This document shows, one piece after another, positions 36,676 to 42,255 of a DNA stretch of 64,000 nucleotides. A program made the position numbers and the translations under genes. The notes beneath the pieces are model-generated. The model was not told the DNA's origin. It did no database searches and saw only the letters and a program-made list of their open reading frames with translations. The DNA comes from Urechis unicinctus (Eukaryota > Annelida > Polychaeta > Xenopneusta > Urechidae), in NCBI GenBank assembly GCA_034190875.2, contig CM067349.1, forward strand, positions 9,645,909 to 9,709,908, given 5' to 3'. Position 1 is the stretch's first letter, and every line of letters starts with the position of its first letter.

Positions 36676-39600
36676 CTATTCGGCTGGGTCAGGCCGTGGA
36701 CAAGCGTGCGTACTCCGAAGCTCGAACACCTGAAAATTGTTATATAGACGTGTTAGATTTAGGGATAACAAATGAGGTTAACATCTAACAGCATGGACAA
36801 GAGTTACATTTCTGACAGGTGTGAACTTAGAATAGAAGACCCATGCGTAACATAAACGTGATCTGAGAGTAACTTCGCATTTGCCATTTTGTCACGTGGT
36901 TGGAAAATATAAACTTTCTATTTTCTTTCGTTGGAATGTTATTATGCTAACTAGGTAGTCTCACGTAATAAACGCTCTCTGGATGTGTCTCTCCTTTGAA
37001 AATCAGCCTGCCTTCCTCAGTGACGTCACAAGTCAGGATTATGGCGGACGTTCTGATAATAAAGTACGTGAATCATATTTTCATGATACACAGCTAATAA
37101 GCAACATTTTATATAAATACAGTACAATGGTGAATATTGAAGCTACTATACAAACGAATTATATATTGATATTTGGATCAAGGTGAATGTAATGAGTTTA
37201 AGGTGGTGGTTTTGGTTTATAATGTTCGTGCTCAGTGAGACATGACTCACCGGACAAGCCCGTCAAAATTGCTAATACTTTTGTACTGAAGTTGGAGAAC
37301 CGTGGAACCTTCGACGGCTTCGTTGACCCAGGTAATGGAATCCTGATCCCCGATGGGATAAGTCGTACCGTCGTCATCAACAAGCTGGCATCCCTAGATG
37401 CCATGCAAGTGTAAATCGATCATCTCGAGAGGTAGGTGTAATATGACAACTGTCATAGAGAGTTTGCTAGGGGATTAAACACTCATAGAACAAGTTTCGG
37501 GATTAGAAGCCACAGTGTGTGGGGACGTACCGAAACACCGGAACAGTCACTTCCTTGGGAAAATGGTGTGCAGGGGTTATACGAGTATTTGTACCCTGTG
37601 GTTTGGTCAAGGATATCATGGAACCTGGGCAGGCACAAAAAAGAATTATAAATTACATATATCAACATCCCGATAACAATCAATATATGTTGTTGTATGA
37701 CACTAAAGACATATAGGGAGAACCTTGGTTGTGAACTGTTTTTGCTGTCCAGGGGTGAAAGGTCAATTAGCCCTTGATCTGTGACGCATGCGCAGTTTCC
37801 CTGTACCGTGTTGCATTTAGGCGTCTGTGGGTTTCCCCTAAAGCAAGCATGGCGACTCCTCAGTTCAAACTCCTGCATGGTTGACATCAAAATTCAACAT
37901 ATCAACTCCTACTTATCGGATGAATAGAGACTGGTGTAATTAATGGAGAATAATATTCATGACCTAGGCGGAATGTAACACACAGATTGCATAGCGCATT
38001 GCTTGCTGTAATTGTACCCATATAATGGATATATCAAACACACTTATGACAAATTTTGCATCGTAGCTTACTAAGAATTTCCAAGACAACACACTTGGGA
38101 TGACGAAGTGCCAGAGTGTAGGAACTCTGTCGATAGTGGGGCTTGGTTAAACGCCCTGTGTTTTGATTGCATCGGTGTGTTTGCGTCGATGTGTGTGCGT
38201 GGATGTGCAAGGGGGTGGGGGTGGATGTGAGTGGAAGGTATGCACTCACATAACGGGTACTGTCCGGGAACGATTCCCCATACGGCGTCAATACACCTTC
38301 CTCTTCGCGGTCACAAGTAAGCGTTATGACGGACGTCCTAAACACAGAATTCATACTCCACCGGGTTCAGCCGTTATTACACATTCAGAGCACATCAACA
38401 CACGAATACACGCAGGTTGCAGCTAGATCTGATCTCTGACAACATTCCAACTCATCTCCTCATAAACGTTTCTCAAAAGAGAAGCAATGATAAACTTTAA
38501 GTGACTGGTTTTTCCATCACTTGGCTCACCTGTTCAATTTGTCAAAGATGCTGTAAGCCGAATAATGCAACTCCATCACAGACGTCCCGTTGACGATTCT
38601 GCTCAACCACGTGACCGATGTCTGTGTGCCTATTGGATAATAATAATACGCGCCGAACTTCTCGAAGATGAGGCAGGTCTGTGAACAGCAAAGGAAATAT
38701 AAATATGTCGGAAAGGAAGAGATGATCAGTGGGCTCACATCAATCCATGTCATTAATTCATCAATGGTTTTCATTATAGCTTTAATGGAATATCATGTAA
38801 TAAAATACCGCTGATCGTTATTAAAATAGCATCACTAGACTTCGCCTTACCGCCACATTGGAACAACCCCCGCCTTGCGTGAAAGGGGAACAGGGGTTAT
38901 AGGAAAATACACTACTTCCACCGGAAGTGTCCAATATGTTGTGGAACCTAAGGAAAACCGGCGACACTTTATTGTTAATTGTCATTATGTTTCGAAAAAT
39001 AATTTCAAAATGATTTCATGGCATTTAGTCAATGATAACTTGTGACCTTGGGATGTATGGGTGTTTGCTGTCAAGGGGAGACAGGTCTATTACTCCGCCC
39101 TCATCAGTGACACATGTACAGTTACCAACTGTTTTCCGGCAGCCATGTTGAGCAATAGGAGGACACGCGTGTCTGCTCTTCAACTCGAATGTCTGGTTTC
39201 TCGGAAAACATTAGATATTTGGTCATTAGGTAGCTGCCTGGCCATACGTATTTTTGTTATGACAATTTATATATGTCAGTCAGTCAGTCAGTCAGTCAGT
39301 CAGTTAGTATTTTCATACTATATTATGAGTTTATGTCAGATTGGCATTCCGTGCCTTATTACCAACTTACTCCTGAATATCCGTCATTGTCTCACGTCAA
39401 TTAATACCAGATTATTATTTAATGACTGGTTATTAGCTGGTGTACAATTAACAGCAAATGGCTTAATGACATTATTTCATATAATCATTTTTGTGAGATT
39501 ATCATTTTTTGTCAGATTATCAGTTAATTGCTGATTATCTGTTTTGGTCAGATTATCTGTTTCAGTTTAACATTAATTCAACTGAACTACAAGTCAATGA

Positions 39601-42255
39601 AGAGTTCGGTGTAGAACCACGCCATGCATAGTTAGAGGTAGAATCGAACGTATCAATTAAAACAAATGACTACCGCCCACAGCAACGCTATTCGCTAGCA
39701 GAATGACGAAGTTAGTCGCGTCATTCGGTGTTTGTTACATAAAAGGCAGTTTGTCTTCATATAATTAAATGGGCGTTGAATATGACTAACATGTAAGCCG
39801 GTCTTGTTCTTCAAAAGAATGTCTTGTTCCGACCGAATATCTTGTTCTAACTGAATGTCTTGTTCTCTTAATAAATATCTTGTTCTTATAATTAATTGGG
39901 AGTTGAAATGGTTGAATGCAACTAACGTATAAAGCGGCTCCGGGGTAAGTTTCTCCGTTGGCAATCAGTGACCCTTCTTGACCTTGATCACAGGTAAGCG
40001 TAATAGTAGATGTCCTGGAAACACGAACCATGAGACATTCGACTCACATTCACTTGATGGGATTAATGACTAAAATCAGTTATTGTCGAAACTGTTCTTT
40101 ATCATAAACAGTCCAATCTGGGTCTACTCCTGCTGATTATTACAAATCCTGCAGGAACAGTTTTAACTACATAACCTTGTGATGCCATCGAAGCCGATGG
40201 AGGTGTATTGCAGCTGCAGTACAGACTGCCCATTCACATCTACATTGATCCAAGCAACACTGCTCTGATCCCCAATAGGGTAAGTTCCACCAAACGAATC
40301 CACAGCTTGACACACCTGTATGATAACAAAGAGACATTCACACGCCTGATGTACGTTGGGATTCAGTGACATTCTAATAAGAAAGAACCATCTTTTCGTT
40401 CATACCTCCTTTAACCCTTATTTGACGGCCATTAGTTACACAAGTACATGCAGTTTGCTTATAAATAAATATTTTTCGCTAAATGAATAACTTGTTGTAC
40501 AAGTATTGAAAATATTAAACCAACAGACTTAGAATTAGAATCACTTACGACACTATAATGTCAAGGAAGATAAAGGTTAACATGGAGAGGAAGGTAAACC
40601 CTATCATATTGAGGCTGATAAACTTAACGTCCTTAGAAGGTTTACCCTAACATGTCAAGGAAGGTATGAGCTAATGCGCTATCTGTGTTATATTACCAAA
40701 TTTGATTACGCGGATAAAACCAAGCCCCCTTACCGCGACATTGGAGCAGCTATTTCCCTCAGAGAAGGCTGAACACGGATTATAAGAGAACATGTCTGCG
40801 CCACCGGATGAGTCAGCCACATCCTTAAATCTACACACACACACACACGCACACCGGCCTCGCGATTACTACTGGCATTATCCTGTCAGGCAGGCGATGG
40901 CTGTTGTACAGAGCTCTGTGCCTCCGGAGGAGTCTGCCACATCCTTAAACCTACACACACACACACACACACACACACACACACACACACACACACACAC
41001 ACACACACACACACACACACACACACACACACACACACACACACACACACACACACACATATACACATACACACACACACACACGACACACACATACACA
41101 CACACACACACACACACACACATACACACAAACATACATACAACATACATACATGCATACATACATACATACATACATACATACATACATACATACATAC
41201 ATACATATACATATACATACATACATACATACATACATACATACATACATACATACATACACACACATACATACATACATACATACATACATACATACAT
41301 ACATACATACATACATACATACATACATACATACATACACACACACACATACATACATACATACATACATACATACATACATACATACATACATACATAC
41401 ATACATACATACATACATACATACATACATACATACATACATACAGACATACATACATACATACATACATACACATACATACATACATACATACATACAT
41501 ACATACATACATACATACAGACATACATACATACATACATACATACATACATACATACATACATACATACATACATACATACATACATACATACATACAT
41601 ACATACATACATACATACATACATACATACATACATACATACATACATACATACATACATGCATGCATGCATGCATGCATGCATACATACAACATACATA
41701 CATACATACATACATACATACATACATACATACATACATACATACATACATACATACATACATACATACATACATACATACAGACATACATACAGACATA
41801 CATACATACATACATATAGAGATATATATATAGATATATATATATATATATATATATATATATATATATATATATATATATATATATATATATATATATA
41901 TATATATATATATATATATATATATATATATATATATATATATATATATATATATATATATATATATATAGCCATTCATTACATGAGTAAAGCCACACCC
42001 GAGCGTATTTTTAGTATCAGAAAAATGACGCTGTTATTGATCTATAGTCGTTCTACATCAATTGAATACTTACTTTGGATTGTTAGGGTCCTTGCTGTCA
42101 AGCGGTGAGAGGTCTATGGTACCTAGGTCCGTGTCACACGCACAGTTGCCTTTCATGGTGTTACATATAGGCGCTTGGTTGGTCCCTCCAAGAGGTAGAC
42201 ACAGCAAACACACACACAACCATGTCGAACGCAAGAAGATTTCCATTGTCAGCAC
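36676..42255 (-). CDS. Secreted protein with three tandem MRH (mannose-6-phosphate receptor homology) domains
   Basis: Thirteen exons join in frame to 504 residues: 42255-42074, 40830-40734, 40315-40176, 40014-39927, 39192-39047, 38947-38851, 38678-38530, 38337-38250, 37872-37724, 37624-37531, 37393-37251, 37052-36965, 36729-36676. Exon 1 encodes a signal peptide ([20 protein letters not shown]) and the first domain start ([17 protein letters not shown]). Each domain then uses the same exon series: F..D..YNPC; YPIG.Q....W to the end of a beta strand; RTS..LTC to a conserved Tyr; and a bridging exon that closes one domain (FEL.SRHAC) and opens the next (GNC.CVTD.G.IDLSPL). The last exon reads [17 protein letters not shown] and then stops, with no membrane segment. 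In all three domains the Gln, Arg, Glu and Tyr positions used for mannose or mannose-6-phosphate binding in MRH domains are present. It is therefore probably a soluble glycan-binding protein. Introns 9 (GTTCTC) and 5 (GTCACA) have weak donors. Confidence 0.85.
39281..39304 (+). repeat. CAGT tetranucleotide repeat
   Basis: Six tandem CAGT units within the intron before exon 5 of the triple-MRH gene. Confidence 0.9.
39800..40921. repeat. Left arm of large inverted duplication
   Basis: Reverse complement of the right arm at 43280-45415, from the AACAAGAC-rich tract through MRH exons 4, 3 and 2 to GGCTGTTGTACAGAGCTCTG at the inner edge. Exons 2, 3 and 4 (97, 140 and 88 bp) are nearly identical between arms. 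Confidence 0.9.
40922..40953 (-). pseudogene. Truncated second copy of MRH exon 2
   Basis: A minus-strand TTTAAGGATGTGGCAGACTC fragment ([10 protein letters not shown]) duplicates the first third of exon 2 at 40830-40734 and then breaks off at the edge of the inverted repeat. Like the true exon it is preceded by a TG repeat and TAG acceptor. Confidence 0.7.
40953..41970 (+). repeat. Compound microsatellite (CA, TACA, TA)
   Basis: About 1 kb of pure simple sequence: CA dinucleotides at 40953-41145, TACA tetranucleotides to about 41815 with a CATG patch near 41660, then TA dinucleotides to 41970. It fills most of intron 1 of the triple-MRH gene and gives long spurious open frames on both strands. 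Confidence 0.98.

Follow-up and report, generated by a model that had tools for sequence, protein, structure and literature searches.

An apparently soluble three-domain member of the P-type lectin family beside a single-MRH receptor gene in Urechis unicinctus

A minus-strand gene of the annelid Urechis unicinctus (assembly GCA_034190875.2) appears to encode a soluble three-domain member of the known P-type lectin family, coupled in sequence to a membrane receptor neighbour on the opposite strand. The two genes lie within a stretch of 64,000 nucleotides (contig CM067349.1, positions 9,645,909 to 9,709,908 of the forward strand), hereafter the window, in whose coordinates all features below are given. 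Reading from the sequence, we think it somewhat more probable than an even chance that the minus-strand gene, with its three tandem MRH domains (hereafter the triple gene), specifies a soluble, secreted, multivalent P-type lectin which arose within a family of single-MRH membrane receptors.

The triple-MRH gene

The gene model comprises 13 exons and 12 introns running from 42246 down to 36676, every intron beginning with GT and ending with AG. The exons, and the one intron that figures in the argument below, are as follows.

42074..42246, minus strand: exon 1, with the ATG, a hydrophobic N-terminus (likely signal peptide) and the opening of MRH domain 1
40734..40830, minus strand: exon 2, cassette type 2, 97 bp, domain 1
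40176..40315, minus strand: exon 3, 140 bp, domain 1, bearing Gln93
39927..40014, minus strand: exon 4, 88 bp, domain 1, with Glu158 and Tyr166; the Arg137 codon is split by intron 3
39047..39192, minus strand: exon 5, 146 bp, bridging the end of domain 1 and the opening of domain 2; weak donor GTCACA
38851..38947, minus strand: exon 6, 97 bp, domain 2
38530..38678, minus strand: exon 7, 149 bp, domain 2, with Leu250 where the binding Gln is expected
38250..38337, minus strand: exon 8, 88 bp, domain 2
37724..37872, minus strand: exon 9, 149 bp, bridging the end of domain 2 and the opening of domain 3; weak donor GTTCTC
37625..37723, minus strand: intron 9, 99 nt, stop-free and in frame; if retained, it would encode a hydrophobic stretch (hydropathy 2.42)
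37531..37624, minus strand: exon 10, 94 bp, domain 3
37251..37393, minus strand: exon 11, 143 bp, domain 3, bearing Gln410
36965..37052, minus strand: exon 12, 88 bp, domain 3, bearing Glu476
36676..36729, minus strand: exon 13, 54 bp, end of domain 3 and TAG

Joined, the exons amount to 1506 nt, that is, 501 codons followed by TAG in one open frame, which specify a hydrophobic leader followed by three MRH domains and a short C-terminal end, PRPDPAE. A first-pass annotation of this DNA had proposed one frame of 504 codons from 13 exons; the thirteen exons and the single frame stand, while the count becomes 501 because the first in-frame ATG, at 42246, sits nine bases inside the earlier end at 42255. 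The repeated four-exon cassette described there, with its shared lengths and phases, is borne out: in domains 1, 2 and 3, type 2 exons measure 97, 97 and 94 bp, type 3 exons 140, 149 and 143 bp, and type 4 exons 88 bp each time, and the intron phases run 2,0,2,0 and repeat. So too are the two bridging exons, 5 and 9 (146 and 149 bp), each of which ends one MRH domain and begins the next. When 13 segments with the lengths of the exons, taken from 1-24000 and 46401-64000 of the window, were joined at random, none of 20,000 trials gave an open frame; this null does not imitate the way in which exons were selected, and the repeated phases and lengths therefore weigh more.

The MRH/CIMR identity of the joined protein was upheld by profile comparison. 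It exceeds the Pfam cut-offs of both CIMR (PF00878, 53.6 bits against a cut-off of 22.5, in three stretches that correspond to the domain-junction regions) and Man-6-P_recep (PF02157, 31.5 bits against 25.4, with the match coming from domain 3, which by itself reaches 27.8 bits). A profile of the family, aligned with hhalign to four CI-MPR repeats of the same genome, gave a probability of 95.2 and an E value of 2.5e-8 at 23% identity, and the alignment lines up CQ, R, E and Y. Beyond the leader there are 24 cysteines, eight in each MRH domain.

Sugar binding by P-type lectins depends on four essential residues, the fourth of which is Tyr. Using the set Gln-Arg-Glu-Tyr and assigning residues by alignment and motif rather than by structure, we find it complete in domain 1 (Gln93, Arg137, Glu158, Tyr166) and in domain 3 (Gln410, Arg455, Glu476, Tyr484); domain 2 keeps Arg297, Glu318 and Tyr326. 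For CI-MPR domain 9, a published figure legend prints the binding residues as Gln, Arg, Glu and Arg (PMC7481795). Two of the three domains, 1 and 3, look able to bind sugar, and domain 2 probably does not, because its binding Gln is replaced by Leu250.

Among the three domains, synonymous differences are saturated (pS 0.79-0.90), as against 0.28-0.33 for nonsynonymous differences (pN). By this measure the domains are apparently old, conserved at the protein level and under purifying selection; a conserved protein whose synonymous sites are saturated is therefore disfavoured as the product of a pseudogene.

The absence of a membrane segment, also proposed at first pass, holds as well: in windows of 19 residues that begin beyond residue 40, hydropathy peaks at 0.96, and the frame stops at 36676. 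Nor does the C-terminus, PRPDPAE, carry a KDEL-type retrieval signal. Splicing past 36676 into a transmembrane exon was looked for by motif and hydropathy, and a hidden membrane exon on the minus strand was rejected, since a tail-motif scan of the window, hydropathy across 30-50 kb and a genome-wide search with the receptor tail (none of its six listed matches falling on the window's minus strand) gave nothing that resembles an MPR tail. Inspection by eye assigned the hydrophobic frames near 36.15 and 37.15 kb to intergenic or intronic DNA. With its 13-exon frame, no helix and no tail, the product is thus predicted to be compact, three-MRH and apparently soluble, much as first described.

The adjacent receptor gene and the inverted arms

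Head to head with the triple gene, with start codons 776 bp apart, is a plus-strand gene at 43022-46277 that encodes an N-terminus resembling a signal peptide, a single MRH domain, a membrane helix and an MPR/Atg27-type tail ending in YESF. Its exons are listed here.

43022..43206, plus strand: exon 1, signal-like N-terminus and MRH opening; donor GTACAA
43372..43468, plus strand: exon 2, with 96 of 97 bases the same as in triple-gene exon 2
44900..45039, plus strand: exon 3, identical to triple-gene exon 3
45201..45288, plus strand: exon 4, identical to triple-gene exon 4
45519..45612, plus strand: exon 5, MRH closing and start of the membrane helix; apparent one-base frame break at the G7 run at 45555
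45823..45949, plus strand: exon 6, the remaining membrane helix and an MPR-type tail with PNVDFWGALPGLAK
46203..46277, plus strand: exon 7, end of the tail, ...TYESF, then stop

This is the layout of a single-MRH receptor (one MRH domain, helix, tail), with an apparent frame break between its parts: across the G7 run the reading frame changes between the pre-helix part and the helix, the result of either an assembly error or a lesion. The tail scores 49.4 bits with PF02157 and 45.8 bits with ATG27, and the MRH part scores 23.3 bits with CIMR (cut-off 22.5) and 22.5 bits with ATG27, below the cut-off of 27 for that profile, with no match to PF02157. Receptor intron 2 holds a tandem repeat (43618-44568) related to a short stretch of triple-gene intron 2 (40550-40674).

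The two genes share inverted-repeat arms, which lie as follows.

39802-40427 and 40631-40921 (within 39802..40921): minus-side inverted-repeat arms
43281-43571 and 44788-45413 (within 43281..45413): plus-side inverted-repeat arms

Overall the arms are 96-99% alike (98% in the exon 2 arm), and their identity is uneven. From 40318 to about 39918 (400 bp) there are zero differences from the plus side, and exons 3 and 4 together with intron 3 are identical between the triple and receptor genes over 389 bp. Counted in 50-base steps, the arm has eight in a row without a difference, flanked on one side by steps with 2, 9 and 5 differences and on the other by steps with 5, 1, 3, 3 and then 9 to 17; the exon 1 openings of the two genes share 75 of 87 bases (86%). 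Domain 1 and the receptor domain stand at a synonymous divergence (dS) of 0.21 and a nonsynonymous divergence (dN) of 0.05, again in keeping with purifying selection. As for the unevenness of the arms, conversion fits better than a single recent duplication, which would leave a more even identity, and the pattern in this one assembly suggests that the middle of the arms has been homogenised by gene conversion.

Relatives in the genome and known systems

A genome-wide search with the triple protein placed 17 of its best 20 matches in the window (13 on the minus strand, four on the plus strand), two on C15 and one, weak, on C1; none of these 20 represents a second copy of the triple gene. Measured against domain 1, identity is 53% for domain 2, 59% for domain 3, 92% for the receptor and 47% for the C15 gene. 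An intron within the Arg codon occurs in all three cassettes and also in the single-MRH genes on C15 and at C8:64.03 Mb (relatives read by eye), and it is absent from the CI-MPR (C4) and CD-MPR (C3) stretches examined by eye, where the frames run straight through. In a small tree of 10 rows, two of them partial (CD-MPR and one CI-MPR row), domains 1-3, the receptor and the C15 gene separate from CD-MPR and the CI-MPR repeats with support of 0.97; we use this tree only for the question of origin. On identity, tree and intron position we reject CI-MPR as the source of the triple gene, which, as far as sequence comparison goes, comes instead from the single-MRH receptor family. The comparison with CI-MPR drawn in the first-pass annotation thus survives as regards the tandem MRH repeats, but the relation is an indirect one, the cassette grouping with the single-MRH receptors on all three counts.

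Both sorting receptors are present in the genome. The CI-MPR multi-repeat gene on C4 accounts for all 13 listed PF00878 matches and has a membrane-like segment after its repeats, and the C3 gene matches CD-MPR structures in the PDB at 1e-10; single-MRH membrane relatives lie on C8 and C15. The triple protein is therefore best regarded as an addition, and the earlier idea that it replaces membrane sorting is unlikely. On the minus strand of C1 (34723830-34727480) there is a broken single-MRH receptor copy, disrupted by frame breaks and by a TAG within the tail. The C15 gene (near 6240 of the extracted locus) and the C8:64.03 Mb gene (near 4000 of its extracted locus) are each, by eye, apparently one base out of step, which would reflect either residual assembly indels or decay.

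Human CI-MPR has a membrane helix and a tail. Like CI-MPR, the triple protein has tandem MRH (CIMR) repeats, PF00878 matches at the junctions and the binding set in some domains only; unlike CI-MPR, it has three MRH domains, no helix and no tail, the human protein having 15 MRH domains (PMC7481795). It differs also from the CI-MPR gene of the same genome, in that the cassette has the Arg-codon intron and the C4 repeats examined do not. The resemblance to CD-MPR lies in the PF02157 match of the joined protein and in the one-MRH, helix and tail layout of the adjacent receptor, whereas the triple protein is without helix or tail and the genome's CD-MPR is a separate gene, with no Arg-codon intron in the stretch examined. 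With Atg27/Mrl1 the link is the receptor tail and its ATG27 match. The four relatives examined end in Y-x-x-hydrophobic, namely YESF in the receptor, YNEL and YDRI in the C15 and C8 genes and YEEL in the broken C1 copy, and yeast Atg27 has a similar C-terminal end. Atg27 and Mrl1 are single-domain membrane proteins, and the triple protein, lacking helix and tail, is unlike them. Mrl1 is given as an MPR homolog in PMC9507130.

In zebra-mussel (Dreissena) plasma, CI-MPR was reportedly found and was raised after immune challenge (PMC7148315), and a shrimp CD-MPR has been reported as a pattern recognition receptor. These are receptor genes, whereas the triple gene apparently codes for a soluble form directly. 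Another paper gives 13 P-type lectin genes for Aplysia (PMC9334734), and MRH genes are therefore numerous in that animal. No secreted multi-MRH protein of an invertebrate is named in the titles and abstract openings retrieved by searches of open-licence PMC, which is no proof that none has been published.

Proposed explanation, competing readings and surroundings

We suggest that copies of a single-MRH receptor gene fused inside their exons, the closing half of exon 5 of one copy joining the opening half of exon 1 of the next, and that this happened repeatedly. Each fusion would have dropped the membrane helix, the tail and the inner signal peptide, and the bridging exons would be what remained. 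The resulting protein would enter the secretory pathway by its leader and, with neither a sorting tail nor a KDEL-type end, would be released. Binding of mannose-type or phosphomannose glycans would fall to domains 1 and 3, with domain 2 serving mainly as a spacer, and two sites per chain would provide avidity for glycan-bearing surfaces or glycoproteins. Such a protein could capture ligands in solution or serve as a decoy, plausibly in haemolymph or mucus, although only context points to an immune or decoy role, namely the mussel and shrimp findings above and the presence of a SUEL-lectin array in the same window. Domain 1 closely resembles the lectin domain of the receptor and the same ligands are therefore expected; the triple protein is possibly the soluble counterpart of that receptor, and competition with a membrane receptor, raised at first pass, becomes a more concrete possibility with the receptor gene adjacent. 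More speculatively, and to our minds improbably, the divergent pair would form a single recognition system of membrane receptor and secreted decoy or capture lectin, with domain 1 held identical by conversion between the inverted arms and possibly with a shared promoter.

Several observations weigh against a soluble, secreted lectin. Taken singly, domains 1, 2 and 3 score 19.5, 19.5 and 22.8 bits with CIMR (cut-off 22.5), so that only the third passes, and sequence searches of the PDB with the triple protein and with the family profile found no match at E up to 10; because the lone domains mostly fall below the cut-off and the PDB is silent, the case for fold and binding depends on the joined protein, on comparison of profiles and on the reading of motifs. 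Two of the 12 introns have weak donors (after exons 5 and 9), and neither AATAAA nor ATTAAA occurs in the 876 bases 3' of the triple-gene stop or in about 1 kb 3' of the receptor stop. The signal peptide is judged from hydropathy only, the N-terminus reaching a maximum of 1.71. The frame break in the receptor gene may mean that the receptor/decoy pair is broken. When the genome was searched with PF02157 and PF00878, the window's own split exons were not among the matches listed, and the silence of these searches elsewhere therefore carries little weight.

OS-9, glucosidase II beta and GNPTG are soluble MRH proteins that combine MRH with other domains and work in the endoplasmic reticulum (ER) or Golgi rather than outside the cell, and their existence is a further point against secretion. 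The triple protein is like them in being soluble with MRH, and unlike them in consisting of three MRH domains and nothing else. It could, on the strength of this precedent, remain in the ER or Golgi and serve glycoprotein quality control or the tagging of lysosomal enzymes, but we consider that unlikely: PRPDPAE offers no retrieval signal, and the nearest relatives found in the genome are membrane receptors with sorting tails (OS-9 and glucosidase-type genes were not searched for).

Least probable of the alternatives, in our estimation, is that some transcripts are membrane-anchored, either through an unseen 3' exon or because retention of intron 9, behind its weak donor, adds a hydrophobic segment after domain 2. 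Four of the 12 introns have lengths divisible by three and intron 9, which is among them, is the sole stop-free one; an open frame matching its hydrophobicity occurs in 155 (0.14%) of 109,602 background windows of that length. Retention might in this way switch the soluble form to a membrane form. The acceptor of intron 9, however, is a good one with a pyrimidine-rich tract, and tracts of this kind encode hydrophobic residues. Because retention would also break domain 3, which would then come to lie on the cytosolic side, we think it unlikely, and the motif scan found no MPR-like tail exon on the window's minus strand. It also seems improbable to us that this is a cluster of pseudogenes with an artificial palindrome, whether through decay of the locus or through the assembly. 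The G7 frame break in the plus-strand gene, the stop and frame breaks of the C1 copy, the one-base slips of the C15 and C8:64.03 Mb genes and the high likeness of the inverted arms would all suit it. Yet the 501 codons of the triple gene are uninterrupted and its domains constrained despite saturated synonymous change, the identity of the arms ranges from 0 differences in 400 bp to 86%, unlike a fold-back artefact, and the best 20 genome-wide matches held no second triple-gene copy.

About 26 kb from the MRH gene pair is a tandem array of small SUEL lectins, marked on the minus strand by nine YGRM...G.C motifs of SUEL type between 600 and 10000 of the window (610, 1729, 2660, 3513, 4376, 5179, 6666, 8286 and 9805); both of the open reading frames scanned pass the Pfam SUEL_Lectin cut-off. 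Just past the end of the triple gene, at 33086-35865, lies a long tandem repeat that is open in several frames on both strands. Elsewhere the minus strand carries a piece of a 2-hydroxyacid dehydrogenase (52450-52869, 88.6 bits), a glutamine synthetase catalytic domain (59407-60564, 250.5 bits) and a THAP domain (63221-63508, 39.9 bits).

An extracellular role for the triple protein would be of interest in animals whose plasma mannose-6-phosphate receptors have been linked with immunity (PMC7148315). If the soluble, secreted lectin proposed here is real, the triple protein would be a natural, compact, two-site P-type lectin, and a soluble multi-MRH protein encoded directly would be a third layout, reached independently of CI-MPR through the exon-internal fusion of single-domain receptors.

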